Positions 39,607-61,551 of a stretch of DNA of 64,000 nt are shown here, in pieces; position 1 is the stretch's first letter; each line of letters starts with the position of its first letter. Source of the stretch: an uncultured Spirochaetales bacterium (GTDB lineage Bacteria; Spirochaetota; Spirochaetia; Sphaerochaetales; Sphaerochaetaceae); assembly GCA_944390865.1 (NCBI GenBank), contig CALXRC010000006.1:1-64000 (forward strand), read 5' to 3'. The notes under the pieces were generated by a model. It did no database searches, was not told the DNA's origin, and saw only the letters and a list, made by a program, of their open reading frames with translations. The translations under genes were made by a program, and so were the position numbers.

Positions 39607-40578
39607 ATGTGTCAAGCTTTTCTCATGGCAGAAAAATCACTGGATATAATCAGGATTCCCGGATCCGCCACGCATCCGGAGCTTGAGATATTCACCAACA
39701 GGATACTGAATTACCGCTACCACTGGCACGAGACGCAGTATGAGATCACCACTGTTCTCTGCGGCCGTGCCGTATACAGCCGCAAAGGAGAAACTGCAGA
39801 ACTGACAGAAGATGACGTGATCATCATTGATCCTCTTATGGGACACGCCTCTCTGGCACTGGAAAAAGGAACTGTCACAATAACACTGCTGATGAACGCT
39901 GAAGGAAATGAGCTGCTGAGCAGAAACGGCACAATGATCTCTTTCAGGCTCTGGCACAGCAGTGAGCATGACCGCAGCAGTCACGCATTCCGCCTTCTGC
40001 GTTCAGTCATCGCAGACATAATGCTCTCTCTTCTTGATGACTCCCCTTTCGCTTCCCAGACGCTTGACAGTCACTGCAGTCTGCTCATTCCATGTCTGAT
40101 GAGATATTTCCATCCGGAAGAAAAACCAGATATAAGAAAAGGCAGTCTGAGCCCGCAGGCTGCCGGCGCAATCACGGCCTTTCTGGAAAATCATTACAGC
40201 GAGAAGATATCACTTGAGGATCTGGCTTCATTTACTGGGTACAACAGGACATACCTGTCATCATTCTTCAAGACGAACACAGGACTGAACTTTCATGAAT
40301 ACCTTACACGCATCAGGCTCAAGCACAGCCTTTCAGATCTTGCCTATACAGACAAGCTCATGACGGCAACGGCTCTGGACAACGGCTTTTCCGACCTTAA
40401 GACCTTTGCTTCAATATTCAAGGCAAACTTCCACATTACTCCGTCAGCCTACCGTGAACTGATAAAAAATGCGGACAAGGCAGAGAACATCGACAGCAGG
40501 CTTTTCCAGAACCCGAGAGATGAGCTTGTCATAAACAAGCTGAGAGGCTTCTCAGAACGTGGGCTGGCAATGCCGTGA
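39607..40578 (+). CDS. AraC-family transcriptional regulator with cupin-like sensor
   Basis: In this 323-residue protein the N-terminal half is a cupin-type sensing domain (YRYHWHETQYEITTVLCG, with DVIIIDPLMGH). The C-terminal 100 residues hold the two helix-turn-helix motifs of AraC/XylS (ISLEDLASFTGYNRTYLSSFF and the second near DNGFSDLKTFASIFKANF). It is divergent from the permease-esterase-dehydratase operon and is its likely activator, responding to the imported acid or sugar. The ATG at 39607 has GAGGA about ten bases upstream. An in-frame ATG at 39625 has none. Confidence 0.92.
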   Translation: MCQAFLMAEKSLDIIRIPGSATHPELEIFTNRILNYRYHWHETQYEITTVLCGRAVYSRKGETAELTEDDVIIIDPLMGHASLALEKGTVTITLLMNAEGNELLSRNGTMISFRLWHSSEHDRSSHAFRLLRSVIADIMLSLLDDSPFASQTLDSHCSLLIPCLMRYFHPEEKPDIRKGSLSPQAAGAITAFLENHYSEKISLEDLASFTGYNRTYLSSFFKTNTGLNFHEYLTRIRLKHSLSDLAYTDKLMTATALDNGFSDLKTFASIFKANFHITPSAYRELIKNADKAENIDSRLFQNPRDELVINKLRGFSERGLAMP

Positions 40579-41015
40579 CACAGGTTCAGGCTGGAAAAAC
40601 AACGTTCCTGCCGGAAGCAGCTTCTACCAGCACACAAGACAGACAGTCTGACTGGCAAATCAGTTTTCAACAAAGCTATCTTGCGTCTCAAAATAGAATT
40701 ATTCAGTTATACACAAGTTATCTCAAAGTTGTTGAAAACCTGTTGAAAAGTGAGTTTTCCACAAGAGTTTTCAGCACTTGTGTCACATGTTCTGATTGTT
40801 AAGAAGCTATATAGGTTTATATGTAAAAACAATGTAAAGATTTTTAATTAATTCTTTTTATTGTAATAAATTGACAATAAAGCTCAATTTGTATCCGATG
40901 CCTTTTGGCACTGGCTTGTGACGCCAGTTTTCCAACTTATTACATAGTTTTCCACAGCGTTGTGGAAAACTTGTGGAAAACTCAGACTTTTCCACATTTA
41001 GTGTCATCAGAGTGT
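40579..41015. other. DnaA-box cluster with AT-rich core, candidate oriC
   Basis: This 437-base non-coding stretch holds five perfect TTTTCCACA sites (40755 and 40948 plus; 40961 and 40972 minus; 40988 plus), one TTATACACA (40707) and three TTTTCAACA sites (40664 plus; 40730 and 40741 minus). TTTTCCACA differs from the E. coli DnaA box by one base. The left and right groups flank an AT-rich core (about 40800-40890). This is the layout of a bacterial origin with an unwinding element. It lies about 12 kb from dnaA, next to murA, and away from the polarity switch between dnaA and gyrB. A DnaA-titration or regulatory site is therefore also possible. Confidence 0.6.
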
Positions 41016-42296
41016 TCAGTTTCTCTTGATCTCAGCACCGATGAAGGCAAGCTTATCCAGAAGCTGCTCATACCCGCGTTCGATCTGCTCTATATTCTTT
41101 ATCACGCTCTGTCCGTCAGCGCAGAGAGCGGCCACGACAAGGGCCATGCCTGCTCTGACATCCGGGCTGATGACTTCCCTTCCCTTCAGCCGCGTCCTGC
41201 CTCTTACTACAGCCCGGTGAGGATCGCACAGAATGATGTCAGCGCCCATGCGTATCAGATAATCAATGAAGAACATCCGTGACTCGAACATTTTCTCATG
41301 AATCAGAATGCTTCCTTCCATCTGGGTTGCTGTCACGCACATTATCGACAGCAGGTCAGCAGGAAAGCCAGGCCATGGAGCATCATCAAGCTTCTCTGTG
41401 ACTCCGGTGTAGTTTCTGGCTATCACCCTGTCCTGATCCGCCGGCACAAAAATCTCATTCTCCCTCTTCTCGAAGCTTATTCCAAGCTTTGAGAAGCCCT
41501 TTTCAATCGGCTTCAGCTGGCTTATGTCAACGCCTGTAAGAGTGAGCTGGCTGCCTGTGCTTGCGGCAAGGCCAATGAAAGAGCCGCATTCCATGTAATC
41601 AAAACTGATAGTGTGGACGCAGGATGAAAGAGATGCCCTGCCGTGAACTGTCAGATAATTTGATCCTATTCCATCTATCCTGCAGCCCATTTTCATCAGC
41701 ATCCGGCAGAGGTTCTGGATATGAGGCTCACAGGCTGCATTGTATATTGTGGACACTCCGTCAGCCAGACTGGCTGCCATGATGCAGTTCTCTGTGGCAG
41801 TGACTGAAGCCTCATCAAGAAAGATGTCGCTGGCTTTTAGCCGCGGCGGCGGAGTGAGTTCAAGATCTCCGTTGTCAAGCACCGAACATCTTACGCCAAG
41901 TGCGGAAAGCCCCGTGAAATGACTGTCCAGACGCCTGAGTCCTATAACATCACCGCCTGGAGGCGGAATCACAACCTTAATGCCGCGTGCAAGCAGCGGA
42001 CCTGCAAGCAGGATAGAACCTCTGACAGAGTCCACAAGCGATGAGCTGAGTCCGTTAAAGCAGATATCGCTTTTGATGTGGAAGCGTCCGTTTCCAAAAC
42101 CTGTGACCTGGCTGCCGAGTTCCTGCAGCAGTTTTATCATCACGCTGACATCCTGGATCATTGGAACGTTCTCAAGTGTTATCTGCTCATCTGTCAGCAG
42201 GCTTGCCGCAAGACAGGGAAGAGCTGCATTCTTGTTTCCGCTTATTCTGACGCGTCCATTGAAACTTCTGCCGCCTGTGATAATATACTCGCTCAT
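41016..42296 (-). CDS. murA: UDP-N-acetylglucosamine 1-carboxyvinyltransferase
   Basis: This 426-residue enzyme transfers enolpyruvate from PEP to UDP-GlcNAc, the first committed step of peptidoglycan synthesis. ISGNKNAALPCLAASLLTDE near the N terminus carries the conserved Lys-Asn. DEASVTATENCIMAA and the late LLSIMCVTATQMEG block are typical. The active-site cysteine position (fosfomycin target) falls in the region IPPPGGDVIGLRRLDSH, which appears to lack the usual Cys and has Asp at that point, as in naturally fosfomycin-tolerant MurA. The ATG at 42296 has no SD sequence, and AT-rich -10-like bases lie directly upstream. Confidence 0.93.
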   Translation of the reverse strand: MSEYIITGGRSFNGRVRISGNKNAALPCLAASLLTDEQITLENVPMIQDVSVMIKLLQELGSQVTGFGNGRFHIKSDICFNGLSSSLVDSVRGSILLAGPLLARGIKVVIPPPGGDVIGLRRLDSHFTGLSALGVRCSVLDNGDLELTPPPRLKASDIFLDEASVTATENCIMAASLADGVSTIYNAACEPHIQNLCRMLMKMGCRIDGIGSNYLTVHGRASLSSCVHTISFDYMECGSFIGLAASTGSQLTLTGVDISQLKPIEKGFSKLGISFEKRENEIFVPADQDRVIARNYTGVTEKLDDAPWPGFPADLLSIMCVTATQMEGSILIHEKMFESRMFFIDYLIRMGADIILCDPHRAVVRGRTRLKGREVISPDVRAGMALVVAALCADGQSVIKNIEQIERGYEQLLDKLAFIGAEIKRN

Positions 42297-42375
42297 GAGA
42301 CATATATTATCATTAATTTTCTCATTTTTCCCTGAACATGGAGTAGAATGAAACAATAAAGGAGAAAAGCCGCAT

Positions 42376-43452
42376 ATGAGCAATTATGACGAGGCAAGAT
42401 CAGTTATAGAGCATTTCAAGATTGACGGAAAGCTGGAAGAGATTAAAGTGAATACACAGGGTCACATAAATTCGACCTTTGTATCCACATTCTCAAAGGA
42501 TGGAGCAAAGACAAAATACACTCATCAGAAGATCAACAAGAATGTGTTCAAAAAGCCAAAGGAAGTGATGGAGAACATTCTGGCTGTCACGAAGCACATT
42601 GAGGCAAAGGTATCAGATCTTCCTGACAAGGAAAGAAGAGTCCTTTCCGTTGTCTTCACAAAGGATCACAAGCCTTTTTACATTGATGAGAACGATGATT
42701 ACTGGAGAACATATGTCTTCATTGAAAATGTGAACACTTACGATAAGATTCCATCTGTCAGCGCAGCAAGGAATCTTGGAAGGGGCATCGGCACTTTCCA
42801 GAAGCAGCTTTCAGACTTTGACGGATCCAGACTCAATATCACCATTCCTCACTTTCATGACATGAACATGCGCTACCGCCAGCTTGAGGATGCCATCAGC
42901 AGAGATCCGGCAGGCAGGGTCAGCAAAGTGCAGGAAGAGCTGGATTTCCTGTTTGAAAACAGGGAAAGAGGCGCAAAGATCTGGAATGCCTTTGAAGACG
43001 GAACACTTCCAAACAGGGTCACTCACAACGACACGAAAATGAACAATGTCCTGTTCGATCCTGCAACAGACGAAGCTGTCTGCGTGATTGATCTTGATAC
43101 TATCATGCCAGGCACTATTCTTTTCGACACAGGCGACATGATCCGCACAGCCTGCAGCACGGCAGAAGAAGATGAAAAAGATCTTTCAAAGGTCAGTTTC
43201 AGCACTGAGATGTACAAATCGCTCATAGGCGGATACAGGGAAATAGCAGACAGCTTCCTCACATCTGAAGAGAAAGACTGGATAAAGGAATCAGGAAGGA
43301 CCATCACGCAGATAATGGCAGTAAGATTCCTGACTGACTACATTGCAGGGGATGTCTATTACAATATCGCCTACCCTGAGCACAATATTGTCAGGGCACA
43401 TACTCAGATCGCATTGATGAAGAGTATGGACGCGCAGTGGCAAAATTTCTGA
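42376..43452 (+). CDS. APH-fold sugar kinase, N-acetylhexosamine kinase-like
   Basis: This 358-residue cytoplasmic kinase of the aminoglycoside phosphotransferase fold has the catalytic loop RVTHNDTKMNNVLFD and the metal-binding VCVIDLDTIMPGTILFDTGD. Both closely follow the pattern of N-acetylhexosamine 1-kinase (NahK) from the lacto-N-biose pathway, so phosphorylation of GlcNAc or GalNAc at C1 is a reasonable prediction. It is followed 38 bases later by a PfkB-family kinase on the same strand. AAAGGAG lies about twelve bases before the ATG. Confidence 0.8.
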   Translation: MSNYDEARSVIEHFKIDGKLEEIKVNTQGHINSTFVSTFSKDGAKTKYTHQKINKNVFKKPKEVMENILAVTKHIEAKVSDLPDKERRVLSVVFTKDHKPFYIDENDDYWRTYVFIENVNTYDKIPSVSAARNLGRGIGTFQKQLSDFDGSRLNITIPHFHDMNMRYRQLEDAISRDPAGRVSKVQEELDFLFENRERGAKIWNAFEDGTLPNRVTHNDTKMNNVLFDPATDEAVCVIDLDTIMPGTILFDTGDMIRTACSTAEEDEKDLSKVSFSTEMYKSLIGGYREIADSFLTSEEKDWIKESGRTITQIMAVRFLTDYIAGDVYYNIAYPEHNIVRAHTQIALMKSMDAQWQNF

Positions 43453-50629: not shown

Positions 50630-51729
50630 CAGTGCATCGGCATTATGACAAAAAGATAGTCCTTCTCAGGTTCAGGCTGGACGACGATCGCCGTGCTGGC
50701 ACTGTTGAAGCAGATCTTGATATTTTCAGAATCTGTAAGCTTGAGAGGTGTCTGCAGGAAGCTGTAATTGAAAGGTATCACTGTCTCAGGTCCGTCATAA
50801 TCACAGTTGATCATGACCTTAGCATCGCCTATCTCAACATTCTCGCTTGACAGCAGCATTCCGTTCTTGTCCAGATCAATAAAGATCTTCTTGCTCGTGC
50901 TGTCTACGCAGAGGGCAACTTGTGAAAGACCGTCAAGCAGTGCAGACACGCTTACAGTGCATTCATAGCTGAATGATGTAGGAATGACTTTCTGGTAAGC
51001 AGGATAGTTTCCGCTTATAAGTGTGGAATAGATTGTATGTCCGTTCAACTGGGCGAAAATGCTGGATGAGCTTACGGCAAGAGAGAGAAGGCCTTCTCCT
51101 GTACCTATTGATACAAGCTGGTTCAGGAACTTTATCGGAATGATGCATGGCTTGAAATCAGGAATTTCCTGCTCAAAGACCTTGCGGGAGACAGAAAGGC
51201 GCTTTCCGTCAGTTGAGACCATGACAAGCTGACCCTCAGCATTTTTCTCCATGAACACACCTGTAAGGAAGAATTTTGTCTCATCAGTTCCGACAGAGAA
51301 AGTAGTCTTGCTGATCATGTCGAAAAAATCACGCTGCGAAAGTGAGAAATACTGGTCTTCGCAGGTCAGCAGCTTTGGAAACTTATCTGCAGGAAGAGTC
51401 TTGAGATTGAACTTTATGTTCTTGTCGCCTCTGACTGAGATGTTTATCATTCCGTCATCTTCGCTGAAGTCGATGTCTGAAGATGGAAGTGATTTCAGAA
51501 TTGACTGGAATTTGTCGCATGTGACAGTAGTAGAGCCTGGAACTTCGGTTATTACAGGAAAACTAGTGGTAAAACCGAGCTTCTGGTCAGTGCTTTTGAT
51601 TGTCAGTGTGTTCTGATAGTTTTCAAGCAGTACGTTTGAAGATATTGAAAGAGCATTTCTCTGGCTTGTGAAGTTATTTGCATGCTCGATTTCTTTAAGA
51701 ATTGTATCTCTCTGGCAGGTAAATTTCAT
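50629..51729 (-). CDS. dnaN: DNA polymerase III beta subunit (sliding clamp)
   Basis: This 366-residue ring-forming clamp has three similar domains. The N terminus MKFTCQRDTILKEIEHANNF and the hydrophobic binding pocket residues near the C terminus (EKDYLFVIMPMH, the usual ending) match the family. GGGGAGG lies four bases before the ATG. A TATAAT at 51760-51765, about 30 bases upstream, is its likely -10. It is separated from dnaA by 567 bases of repeat-rich DNA, so it probably has its own promoter, and it heads a dnaN-recF-dciA transcript. Confidence 0.97.
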   Translation of the reverse strand: MKFTCQRDTILKEIEHANNFTSQRNALSISSNVLLENYQNTLTIKSTDQKLGFTTSFPVITEVPGSTTVTCDKFQSILKSLPSSDIDFSEDDGMINISVRGDKNIKFNLKTLPADKFPKLLTCEDQYFSLSQRDFFDMISKTTFSVGTDETKFFLTGVFMEKNAEGQLVMVSTDGKRLSVSRKVFEQEIPDFKPCIIPIKFLNQLVSIGTGEGLLSLAVSSSSIFAQLNGHTIYSTLISGNYPAYQKVIPTSFSYECTVSVSALLDGLSQVALCVDSTSKKIFIDLDKNGMLLSSENVEIGDAKVMINCDYDGPETVIPFNYSFLQTPLKLTDSENIKICFNSASTAIVVQPEPEKDYLFVIMPMH

Positions 51730-52296
51730 AATGCCTCCCCTAATTATTCATACTAGATAATTATAAGGTAAAAGAGCAAAAAAAAGTAGTACAAACTGAG
51801 AAGACTGCTAAAAACTTGTTTTTGATTAAATGACAGGTAAATGCGGAAAGCTGTATCAGCCGTTTCAGCAGTTCATACCCTTTATGACTGTTAATAGAAT
51901 AAAAAAGATTTCGTAGTAGTGGCAGTAAGGCCTGTTGAAATGTTGAAAAAGCATTCATCTTTTTTTATTGAAATAAAATAGACTTACTGAAAACTTGTTG
52001 AAAACATCGTTGATAACTCATTTTCTGCTGTTGAAATGTTGAAAAAACCTGATGAGTGATGAAAGTTTTCAACATAAGGCTGTGTTTTCAACATATGATT
52101 GAACAGGTTTTAAACAGGTTCTCAACAAGTTTTCAACAGAGTTTTGAACAGCAGGAATGACAGTTTTCCTTTCTTTTTGAAATGAAGAACATGAAAAAAT
52201 CATTTTTCGCAGGCTGTAAGTTATCTGATGCCAGGCTTCGGCAGGCCGGCATCAGACAGATACTGTTTCTTTGTATTTTAAGATTGCAGCGTGAAA
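51730..52296. repeat. array of TTTTCAACA repeats between dnaA and dnaN
   Basis: This 567-base non-coding stretch has six exact TTTTCAACA sites: three on the minus strand (51941, 51996, 52037) and three on the plus (52066, 52085, 52130). Near copies lie at 51933, 52008, 52029, 52119 and 52142. All left-hand copies point one way and all right-hand copies the other. A 19-base unit (CTGTTGAAATGTTGAAAAA) occurs twice, at 51932-51950 and 52028-52046. The sites resemble DnaA boxes but carry AAC instead of CAC. The region lies 1.4 kb from the dnaA-gyrB polarity switch and may be oriC or a dnaA control region. No gene is credible here. Confidence 0.6.
52225..52255. terminator. hairpin downstream of dnaA
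   Basis: CTGATGCC (52225-52232) pairs with GGCATCAG (52248-52255), with further pairing around a TTCG core. It lies about 40 bases after the dnaA stop. No T run follows on the minus strand, so it may be a weak terminator or an mRNA 3' end. Confidence 0.4.
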
Positions 52297-53643
52297 TTAC
52301 TTTTTCCTGATTTTTGTTTCCAGACTGTCCAGAGCAGAAGCCAGCTCTGCATTCTGCTTTCTTTCCTTTTCAACCTTGTCTATTGAATGAGTTATGGTTG
52401 AATGGTCACGGTCAAAATATGATCCGATCTCTGTTGTTGAGTACTGGGTCAGCCTTCTTGTCAGGTAAATGGCAATATTTCTTGCATCCTTTATTATAGC
52501 TGTTCTCTTCTTGCCTTTTATTTCCGCAACATCAATATTGAAATACTGTGCGACTTCTCTGACAATCGTGCTCATTGAGATGTCCTGCTCCCCCGCCATA
52601 GGACTTGCAATGATGTTCTTGAGCTGTTCCTGGGCTATTTCAAGGGTTATGTCGCTCTTGATGAGGTTTGAATAGGCAATCAGGGTTGTAAGTGATCCTT
52701 CAAGATCCCTTACATTTGTTTTGATGTTCTCAGCTATGTAGTTGATGACGCTGTCATAGATCCTCACGCCCTTTGTTTCGCACTTCTTTCTCAGAATGGC
52801 CACGCGTGTCTCATAGTCAGGAGCTGTCAGATTGATGTTCAAACCCCTTGTGAATCTTGACTTGAGCCTGTCAGTGAAACCCTTGAGTTCGCTTATCGGA
52901 CGATCACAGGTGAAGACAATCTGCTTGTTTGTCTCATAAAGATCGTTGAAGGTATGGAAAAGCTCTTCCTGAGTCTGTATTTTCTTTTCCAGAAAATGGA
53001 TATCATCAATCAGAAGGATATCTGCCTTGCGGTATTTGATCCTGAACTGGGAAGTGTTCTTGTTTGTCAGGGACTGGATATAGTCATTTGTAAATGTCTC
53101 TGCAGTTACATAAACCACGTTCTTTCTGGGATTCTCTTCTTCAATATAGTTTCCGATTGATTCCAGAAGATGTGTCTTGCCAAGACCTACTCCTCCATAA
53201 ATAAGGCATGGATTATAGCTCATGCCTGGATGCATGGCGATTGCCTTGGCTGCGTTATAGGCAAAGATTGTGCTTTCGCATGGAATGAAGTTGTCAAATG
53301 TATATGCAGGATTGAGAAGGCTCTTTCTTATTTTCTGATTTGATGGAATTTCCTGAGGAATCTCCTCGCTGTCCCCTTCTGTGGTTGATTCGTCACTTGC
53401 AATAGTCACATCAAAAGCAACCTTGTTGCCGCTCAGCTCCTCCATGAGATTCCGGGCTTCTGTCATACAGCTTTTTTCAAAGTTTACTTTTGTCATTGCA
53501 GAGTCACATTCCAGGTAGACAGTATTTCCTTCTTCCTTCTTGAATGTGACGTAATCGAGCCACATGGTCTTTGCCTCTGGCAGTGAGTCATTAAGCTGTT
53601 CTAGAGTCTGATACCAAATTGATTCCAACATAGCTTTTTCCAT
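52297..53643 (-). CDS. dnaA: chromosomal replication initiator protein DnaA
   Basis: This AAA+ initiator of about 448 residues has domain I (ESIWYQTLEQLNDSLPE), an acidic linker, Walker A GGVGLGKTHLL (about residue 150), Walker B DILLIDDIHFLEKK, sensor region FTCDRPISELKGFTDRLKSRF, and the domain IV DNA-binding helix-turn-helix with the signature YFDRDHSTITHSIDKV. It binds DnaA boxes and melts the origin. The ATG at 53643 has no SD sequence but follows a -10 element by six bases. A second ATG four codons later (MLESIW) has GGA upstream and is an alternative. It is divergent from gyrB. Confidence 0.98.
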   Translation of the reverse strand: MEKAMLESIWYQTLEQLNDSLPEAKTMWLDYVTFKKEEGNTVYLECDSAMTKVNFEKSCMTEARNLMEELSGNKVAFDVTIASDESTTEGDSEEIPQEIPSNQKIRKSLLNPAYTFDNFIPCESTIFAYNAAKAIAMHPGMSYNPCLIYGGVGLGKTHLLESIGNYIEEENPRKNVVYVTAETFTNDYIQSLTNKNTSQFRIKYRKADILLIDDIHFLEKKIQTQEELFHTFNDLYETNKQIVFTCDRPISELKGFTDRLKSRFTRGLNINLTAPDYETRVAILRKKCETKGVRIYDSVINYIAENIKTNVRDLEGSLTTLIAYSNLIKSDITLEIAQEQLKNIIASPMAGEQDISMSTIVREVAQYFNIDVAEIKGKKRTAIIKDARNIAIYLTRRLTQYSTTEIGSYFDRDHSTITHSIDKVEKERKQNAELASALDSLETKIRKK

Positions 53644-58711: not shown

Positions 58712-58727
58712 TGTTTCACGTGAAACC
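58712..58727. other. parS site 1
   Basis: TGTTTCACGTGAAACC matches the bacterial parS consensus palindrome (TGTTTCACGTGAAACA) at 15 of 16 positions. It is a binding site for ParB. Confidence 0.92.
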
Positions 58728-58837
58728 AAGAATTGAATGTTAAATTTGTGTTTTATGGAAATAAAGGACTGTTATTGAGAATTATACTGATGTTATTGTG
58801 GGTTGCTAATAATATATTTTGATTTGTTCTGTTTTTT

Positions 58838-58853
58838 TGTTTCACGTGAAACA
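58838..58853. other. parS site 2
   Basis: TGTTTCACGTGAAACA is a perfect match to the consensus. It follows a run of Ts. Confidence 0.95.
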
Positions 58854-59153
58854 ATCAACTTTGAAGAATTAAGAGTTGTTTTGTCATTGTTTTTTTGAGT
58901 TGCTGTTTTTTTGTTTGATTTAGTTTCCTAAAAATGTAGCATTCAGGATATATAAATATTATGATGTTGTATGTTAAGGTTTTTTGAATGTACTTGCTTC
59001 TATCATAGTTTTTCTTGGTGTTCTGTGTTTTTATATGATTATTTTTCTCTAATCATAATAACTGCCTGCTGTGTGATAAATATATGCGTTTAGGTAATTG
59101 TGAAATCGAATTCTTTTTATAGCTCAGAACTTTTCTTGATTATTCTTTTTTTT

Positions 59154-59169
59154 TGTTTCACGTGAAACT
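59154..59169. other. parS site 3
   Basis: TGTTTCACGTGAAACT matches at 15 of 16 positions, with an intact 14-base palindromic core. It follows a run of nine Ts. Confidence 0.92.
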
Positions 59170-59286
59170 CTCCGAAGCTTGATATGTGGCGTGTTTATAA
59201 CATATCAATGTTTCTAGATTTAAGGTTTTTTTTGATTCATGACGGATAATATTGACGGTTTGGTAATATATTAATATATTACACCT

Positions 59287-59302
59287 TGTTTCACGTGAAA
59301 CT
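59287..59302. other. parS site 4
   Basis: TGTTTCACGTGAAACT again has the intact 14-base core. It is the parS site closest to parA, about 450 bases upstream of it. Confidence 0.92.
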
Positions 59303-59747: not shown

Positions 59748-60518
59748 ATGCCTTCTGCACGTAAAATTATTTTTTTGAATCAGAAAGGTGGAGTTGGAAA
59801 GACAACTACCTGTGTTAACTTGGGATCATCGCTTTGTGCCATGGGATACAAAGTGCTTTTGATTGACTTTGACTCTCAGGGAAATCTTACTGGTGCCGTA
59901 TCCGGAGATGGAAGGAAACCTACCATGTACGATGTCATGAGCGGTCGTGTTTCTGCTGAAGCAGCAGTACAGGAAACTCCTTTTCAGAATCTTTATCTTA
60001 TTCCGGGTTCAATTGATCTTGCTGGGCTTAATGTTGAACTTGCTGATGAAGAAGACAGGAACCTTTTTCTCAAGAGGATGATTGCTGATTTATCCAGCCA
60101 GTATGATTTTATATTTGTTGATTGTCCTCCTTCGCTCGGTGTCATTACAATGAATGCACTGGCATGGGCAGAGAGCATAATAATACCGATGCAGTGCGAA
60201 TACTTCTCGATGGAGGGTCTCAACCTCCTGATGAGAACAGTGTCAAATGTGAGGAAGGAACTCAATCCTGAAATAAAGATTCTTGGTATTGTCTTCACAA
60301 TGTTCAGCAAGAAAAGCAGGCTCAACGCAGAAGTTGTCCGTGACACAAGCGAGTTTTTCCCGTCTCTTGTATTCAAGACAATCATTCCAAGAACTGTGCG
60401 TCTTGCGGAAGCCCCTTCTTTCGGACTTCCCATCAATGTCTATGATATCTCAAACGTTGGCAGCAAGGCCTATGCAGCGCTGGCAAAGGAGGTTGTGAAC
60501 CGTGTCGATCAAATCTAA
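59748..60518 (+). CDS. parA: chromosome partitioning ATPase ParA (Soj)
   Basis: In this 256-residue ATPase the deviant Walker A KGGVGKTTTCVNLG starts at residue 13, DFDSQGNLT is the A' box, and FVDCPPSLG the Walker B. It is the short chromosomal type without an N-terminal helix-turn-helix. It binds DNA nonspecifically as an ATP dimer and drives origin segregation with ParB. The N terminus MPSARKIIFLNQ is the normal start. It has no SD sequence and lies six bases after a -10 element. The last 17 bases overlap parB. Confidence 0.97.
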   Translation: MPSARKIIFLNQKGGVGKTTTCVNLGSSLCAMGYKVLLIDFDSQGNLTGAVSGDGRKPTMYDVMSGRVSAEAAVQETPFQNLYLIPGSIDLAGLNVELADEEDRNLFLKRMIADLSSQYDFIFVDCPPSLGVITMNALAWAESIIIPMQCEYFSMEGLNLLMRTVSNVRKELNPEIKILGIVFTMFSKKSRLNAEVVRDTSEFFPSLVFKTIIPRTVRLAEAPSFGLPINVYDISNVGSKAYAALAKEVVNRVDQI

Positions 60519-61551
60519 CCGGAAAGATCATTTGGGAAAAGGAATAAGCTCTCTGCTTGGCAATTTTTCCTATGACATGGCAGATGAACTTCTTGGAGAG
60601 CTGGAGAAAAATAAGCAGAAGCATGAAGAAGAACAGATGCCGGAGCCAGTAAAGGAAAAACCTGCTGAAAAGATCATTCCTAAAATCGCAGAAGTGAAGC
60701 CTGTGGAAATCAAGCCTGCGGAAACAAAGGGCATTGATGAAAATCAGGTGCTTTATGTCTCAATTGACAATATTCAGGTAAATCCTGATCAGCCAAGAAA
60801 ATCCTTTGATGAGAACAGCCTTCAGGAGCTTGCTGAGTCCGTCCGCAAACAGGGCATTCTTCAGCCTCTTCTTGTAGAAGAGTTCGCTCCTGGAAAATTC
60901 TCTATTATTGCAGGTGAGAGAAGATACAGGGCAGCTAGAATTGCGGGACTGGATAAAATACCAGTGCTTGTCCGCCGGCTGAACGAAATACAGCGCATTG
61001 AAGTCGCTCTGATCGAGAATATTCAGAGGGAGGACCTTAATCCTGTCGATGAGGCAGCCGCTTATCAGTTCCTGATCCAGAAATCAGGACTGACGCAGGA
61101 AGAGATTGCAAAGCGTGTAGGCAAAAACAGGTCAACAATCACAAACAGTCTCAGACTGCTTCAGCTTCCTGATTCAATTAAGGACGATCTTGTCTCCGGC
61201 CTTATCACTGCAGGGCATGCGAGGGCTATACTTTCCTGCATTAATCCGTCTGACAGGATTATTCTCAGAAACAGAATTGTTGATAAAGAACTGTCTGTAC
61301 GTGCAGCAGAGGCAGAAGCAGAGGCTCTTAATCAGGGAAAGAAGCTTATTCTCAAGAAGAAGGCCAGCCAGAAGAACAAGGATGCTGAGATTATCAGTAT
61401 CGAAGACAAGTTTCTTATGGCATTCGGCACTCATGTTGAGGTCAAGGGTTCTGCAAGGAGAGGCAAGCTGATTATTCCTTACAGCACTACAAGGGAACTT
61501 GAGAGGATTTATGCACTGCTCAAGGATGATCAGTTGTTCGATGAAGAATAA
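60502..61551 (+). CDS. parB: chromosome partitioning protein ParB (Spo0J)
   Basis: This 349-residue CTPase clamp loads at parS. It has an N-terminal ParA-stimulating segment (SNRKDHLGKGISSLLGN), an unusually long Lys/Glu/Pro-rich linker of about 60 residues, and the CTP-binding fold ending in IAGERRYRAARIAG. A helix-turn-helix follows (TQEEIAKRVGKNRSTITNSLR), then a C-terminal dimer domain with a KLIIPYSTTRELERIY segment. It starts with GTG, preceded by AGGAGG inside parA. The four parS sites just upstream of parA are its obvious targets. Confidence 0.97.
   Translation: MSIKSNRKDHLGKGISSLLGNFSYDMADELLGELEKNKQKHEEEQMPEPVKEKPAEKIIPKIAEVKPVEIKPAETKGIDENQVLYVSIDNIQVNPDQPRKSFDENSLQELAESVRKQGILQPLLVEEFAPGKFSIIAGERRYRAARIAGLDKIPVLVRRLNEIQRIEVALIENIQREDLNPVDEAAAYQFLIQKSGLTQEEIAKRVGKNRSTITNSLRLLQLPDSIKDDLVSGLITAGHARAILSCINPSDRIILRNRIVDKELSVRAAEAEAEALNQGKKLILKKKASQKNKDAEIISIEDKFLMAFGTHVEVKGSARRGKLIIPYSTTRELERIYALLKDDQLFDEE

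Follow-up and report, generated by a model that had tools for sequence, protein, structure and literature searches.

A DnaA-box cluster behind murA

The stretch analysed here (the window) is the first 64,000 nucleotides of contig CALXRC010000006.1 (assembly GCA_944390865.1) from an uncultured Spirochaetales bacterium, a member of the Sphaerochaetaceae whose closest murA loci belong to uncultured Spirochaetales, Candidatus Aphodenecus, Bullifex and Sphaerochaeta. At 40664-40996 it carries nine DnaA-box-like 9-mers (five TTTTCCACA, one TTATACACA and three TTTTCAACA), which form two groups (40664-40763 and 40948-40996) with an AT-rich core between them. Two convergent genes, murA and an AraC-type gene, flank this element with their 3' ends towards it. 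It lies 20-350 bp past the murA 3' end and 11 kb from the boxes between dnaA and dnaN. Its parts and its neighbours are as follows.

40664-40996, no strand: whole element, two DnaA-box groups and AT-rich core; aligned across 26 genomes
40664-40672, plus: outermost box TTTTCAACA, exact site
40707-40715, plus: outer box TTATACACA, outside pair B; most of the genus has a box-like 9-mer here
40730-40749, minus: box pair B, TTTTCAACA-GG-TTTTCAACA; two head-to-tail boxes with an 11-bp offset (starts 40730 and 40741)
40755-40763, plus: inverted box TTTTCCACA adjoining pair B
40800-40880, no strand: AT-rich core; the least stable 80 bp (from 40799) of the 104-kb contig
40849-40866, minus: core motif TTACAATAAAAAGAATTA, matching TTATAATACAAAGAATTA in the element of a second family
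40948-40956, plus: inverted box TTTTCCACA adjoining pair A; many relatives have one too
40961-40980, minus: box pair A, TTTTCCACA-AG-TTTTCCACA; two head-to-tail boxes with an 11-bp offset (starts 40961 and 40972); conserved partner pair 231 bp away
40988-40996, plus: outer box TTTTCCACA beyond pair A
41016-42383, minus: murA (TIGR01072, 457 bits, cut-off 393); 3' end faces the element
39607-40578, plus: AraC-type regulator, convergent neighbour; not conserved in relatives

An earlier note on this DNA had described nine sites in two groups around an AT-rich core; all were found in place, and their density was far above chance. The pattern TTWTCMACA occurred at 16 sites in the window, eight of them inside the 333 bp of the element, whereas 60 first-order Markov simulations of the window yielded a mean total of 2.6 sites and at most two in any 333-bp span. 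TTWTNCACA occurred nine times against 4.1 expected, with six of the nine in the murA-side cluster. Moreover, pairs A and B were the sole head-to-tail pairs with an 11-bp offset in the organism's own 1.96-Mb assembly. The window also carries TGTCAA-N4-TTA, which is near the IHF consensus WATCAANNNNTTR but does not persist in every relative. Scanning the element against Rfam returned no structured RNA, and no plasmid relatives were found.

Conservation within the Sphaerochaetaceae

Conservation in relatives, one of the checks that the earlier note had proposed, bore the cluster out. A box cluster was present 20-420 bp behind murA in ~25 relatives, and across the 26 aligned genomes the element matched over ~300-400 bp while its flanks did not. 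Head-to-tail pairs with the 11-bp offset were found in 66 of the 119 genomes of the family (reversed-pattern control: zero), and the pair-to-pair spacing was 229-233 bp in all 36 genomes in which both pairs matched (counted from the match list). The gene beyond the element varied by genome (a sigma-54-type regulator, a GGDEF protein, RsmE or AraC), and in genus g16 (L130-L135 and L148) the element was kept between the same outer genes with murA gone from the slot. For the g16 genomes, no MurA at E<=1e-100 stood among the matches listed. At every locus examined the element lay on the dnaN side of the dnaA-dnaN region, at a distance of 8-29 kb. The element, a non-coding, conserved arrangement outside oriC and tied to no single gene, is thus real, conserved and autonomous of any one neighbour.

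In a few Sphaerochaeta-type loci (L014-L016) an inverted repeat, TAACTCACCT-TCTT-AGGTGACTTA, was seen ~30 bp past the right-hand pair, with no T-run after it; it persists in altered form at other loci of this type.

Two explanations bear directly on these data. A chance cluster or functionless local repeat would draw on the bias of AT-rich intergenic DNA towards T/A-rich 9-mers, but the simulated maximum of two sites against eight observed, together with a spacing conserved across the family, makes it scarcely conceivable. A promoter, operator or terminator of the neighbouring genes is improbable: DnaA is a known transcription factor and inverted boxes can form hairpins, but the setting is convergent in most genomes, the neighbours are exchangeable, promoter and terminator matches were at about chance level and there was no Rfam match.

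The likely origin at dnaA-dnaN

The earlier note left two choices for the element, a displaced oriC or a datA/DARS-like locus. The features that bear on the first lie on the other side of dnaN.

51729-52297, no strand: dnaA-dnaN intergenic region, likely the true oriC; six TTTTCAACA boxes
51910-51931, minus: degenerate DnaA-trio-like stretch beside an oriC box, TTTCAACAGGCC-TTACTGCCACTACTACGAA
59748-60518: parA
60502-61551: parB

On its face the element has the bipartite look of a textbook origin, and a DnaA-box cluster with an easily melted AT-rich stretch, by which an oriC is recognized, is found there. Its boxes are also nearer the E. coli consensus than those beside dnaA (51941-52150), which are all TTTTCAACA-like, as the earlier note had held. 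It was likewise right in placing the switch of gene polarity between dnaA and gyrB: dnaA, dnaN and recF run one way, gyrB and gyrA the opposite way.

GC skew, the other check proposed, was assembled from contig stretches for the eight genomes whose available sequence covered both loci. In these the skew was negative before dnaA-dnaN and was positive in the interval up to the element as well as past it. In 8/8 genomes the data fitted a change point at dnaA-dnaN better than a change point at the element (gain in log-likelihood 4.6-29.7), and the best-fit change points fell 1.0-5.1 kb from oriC, with the element 11.2-28.9 kb from it, within the replichore. In a complete relative (G049, 2.23 Mb), sampled over the whole chromosome in 20-kb pieces, the skew was positive over the first ~0.67 Mb and negative over everything after 0.75 Mb, with a single negative-to-positive switch, at dnaA. 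In one genome (G011) the cumulative skew minimum was 48 kb off, probably from an inversion, yet the fitted change point was at oriC.

The dnaA-dnaN region also has the known DnaA-trio layout, i.e., a DnaA box followed by a trio run (such as CTATTATTACTATTATTACTA) and then an AT-rich stretch. The runs comprised 5-7 trios in 16 of 20 relatives and three in the remaining four, and the window carries a degenerate form. At the element no trio array was found, merely scattered runs of 2-3. In addition, four parS-like sites (58712-59302; one perfect TGTTTCACGTGAAACA and three that each depart from it by one base; chance expectation 0.03) lie upstream of parA; these sites and parA/parB are ~7 kb from dnaA-dnaN on its gyrA side, the far side from the element. 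Because the skew switch and the trio array are both at dnaA-dnaN, the origin likely lies there and not at the murA-side cluster. A displaced oriC, with replication starting at the element and dnaA-dnaN vestigial, is rejected on skew and trio position, as well as on the parS-like sites near dnaA-dnaN, and we consider it highly improbable. Of the two choices, the control locus is the one that fits the data.

An unusually dense origin was seen in a g18 relative (G061, L138:3361-3675), with 16 TTATCCACA boxes in ~320 bp between dnaN and dnaA.

Related elements in other spirochaete families

When 395 genomes of the class were searched with a loose pattern, the pair-gap-pair arrangement was also found in other families. 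In one of them (f24, probably the Treponemataceae) it lies behind a STAS gene that adjoins a polyprenyl synthetase gene, and ~20 of 30 such STAS loci carried same-facing boxes ~200-240 bp apart. In the three long-contig genomes whose STAS loci carry boxes, the distance from STAS to dnaA was ~236 kb (G416), 561 kb (G272) and, by the short way round, ~0.4 Mb (G353). This family has its own trio array adjoining dnaA.

A hidden Markov model (HMM) was built from the Sphaerochaetaceae core with the boxes masked and was run on 105 kb of f24 sequence. All 15 top matches fell inside the STAS-side element, which made up 14% of the searched sequence (11 loci), while 20 column-shuffled models placed at most six matches there and reached a top score of 8.2 bits (vs 14.1 bits). 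A motif, TTATAATACAAAGAATTA, was common to the cores of both families (in the window, TTACAATAAAAAGAATTA). The core similarity suggests that the two elements are probably homologous, with relocation and parallel assembly both conceivable.

The same loose pattern matched beside dnaA in f41 and f42; the f41 site was rejected as the same element, having no AT-rich core. Half-sites resembling those of parS (TGTTTCAC / GTGAAACA) were observed in or beside the STAS-side boxes of three f24 elements (L164, L165 and L201). As for secondary structure, conservation of a hairpin or cruciform in the core was rejected: the best inverted repeats were mostly not above shuffled sequence, and strong ones near the midpoint occurred in few genomes (L165, L167 and L170). 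Two of these, in the core between the box pairs, are perfect, namely ATAAATTATTGT-ATT-ACAATAATTTAT (L167:5650-6030) and TAACTCCTTAT-TCT-ATAAGGAGTTA (L170:5634-5874); they belong to two other families and are absent from most genomes.

These distant loci also bear on two further explanations. In an auxiliary or split origin, DnaA would open the AT-rich core, so that the element would be a second initiation or helicase-loading site or the distant half of a bipartite origin. The core is indeed the least stable 80 bp of its own contig and within the top 0.3% in three relatives, and in two other families a similar pair-gap-pair stands right beside dnaA. However, i) no trio array adjoins the element boxes; ii) no skew switch occurs at the element in the eight genomes; iii) in another family, hundreds of kb separate the probable homologue from dnaA; and iv) the dnaA-adjacent cases matched a loose pattern, that of f41 having no AT-rich core. 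We regard this explanation as unlikely. The second is a chromosome-organising or segregation site, which would use DnaA or a protein of similar specificity and leave initiation control unaffected. A fixed spacing, proximity to the origin in the Sphaerochaetaceae and a non-coding, autonomous nature would suit such a site, but parS sites are already near oriC and the element of the second family is far from the origin, so that this explanation too appears quite unlikely.

The probable binding protein

The element and oriC carried boxes that changed in parallel from clade to clade, being of the TTATCCACA type in Sphaerochaeta, of the TTTTCCACA type in g16 and TTTTCMACA in the window's genus. Position 3 of the box (A/T) co-varied between the two places with a Spearman coefficient of 0.88 (21 genomes, uncorrected for descent). 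Between these clades, domain IV of DnaA shows differences near the positions of E. coli R399-Q408 and D433-T436, which are DNA-contact positions. Because the boxes co-vary and domain IV differs at such positions, the comparison points to the same protein, DnaA, at both the element and oriC. In each of six genomes no Hda scored above its cut-off and a single HU/IHF-like protein was present, which leaves room for a DNA element to take on part of the regulation of DnaA.

A candidate DnaA control locus

On balance we therefore favour, as the probable explanation, a non-coding DnaA-binding control locus that is separate from oriC and conserved in the Sphaerochaetaceae and that probably has a homologue in one or more further spirochaete families. 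The constant ~230-bp spacing and the same-facing pairs suggest two DnaA assemblies joined over a flexible core. DnaA would bind both head-to-tail pairs, which share one orientation and are ~22 helical turns (~230 bp) apart, and the AT-rich core between them, possibly bent by the single HU/IHF-like protein, would allow the DnaA bound at either pair to come together as a single complex. This joint complex would hold DnaA or alter its ATP/ADP state, and would thereby set the timing of initiation at the dnaA-dnaN origin. The mode of action may be titration, inactivation or recharging of DnaA. Since it lies 8-29 kb from oriC in the Sphaerochaetaceae, the element is copied very soon after initiation, and such early copying would suit a titration or inactivation role once the origin has fired.

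Several points weigh against a control locus of this kind: i) the co-variation of the boxes mostly reflects three clades and thus few independent events; ii) the core match to f24 is weak per sequence (best 14.1 bits), and the name of this second family is itself inferred; iii) looping and the direction of action (titration, inactivation or reactivation) are not readable from sequence, from which we also infer DnaA binding and the effect on initiation; iv) the instability of the core equals that of a DNA-unwinding element. A bolder proposal, for which we see only a slim chance, is that spirochaetes have an old DnaA element, able to relocate, at which DnaA would unwind DNA at a second site; it would be an origin module set apart from oriC and cooperating with it from 8-29 kb in one family and from hundreds of kb in another.

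Relation to known systems and significance

Detailed knowledge of off-origin DnaA control loci comes mainly from E. coli and, to a lesser extent, from Bacillus. Several DnaA-box clusters lie away from oriC in Bacillus subtilis, where they are thought to limit initiation; to our knowledge, they have no fixed two-pair geometry. Like an oriC that carries DnaA-trios (the basal unwinding system), the element has DnaA boxes in tandem and a stretch that is AT-rich and unstable, but it has neither trio array nor skew switch. E. coli datA, which consists of five DnaA boxes and an IHF site, is likewise a non-coding, off-origin cluster of several boxes whose spacing matters (PMC4585315). The element differs from datA in its two same-facing pairs ~230 bp apart, its AT-rich core and its position 8-29 kb from oriC in the Sphaerochaetaceae, and no conserved IHF consensus emerged among the relatives. 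The likeness is one of analogy. E. coli DARS1 and DARS2, whose structure and relative position are conserved within the species, are also off-origin intergenic DnaA boxes and control DnaA (PMC4585315); their box arrangement differs from that of the element. By analogy, then, the element may be called datA/DARS-like in kind, as the earlier note had offered: it is conserved, non-coding, not bound to a gene and off-origin, with a probable homologue far from dnaA, and so answers the general description of such loci, but its layout is its own and it would not be a member of either.

No account of a spirochaete element of this kind turned up in the open-access literature (subscription papers lay outside the search). 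The element offers a defined 330-bp target for direct tests. If our reading is true, off-origin control of DnaA exists far outside the Enterobacteria, in genomes without Hda above the cut-off.
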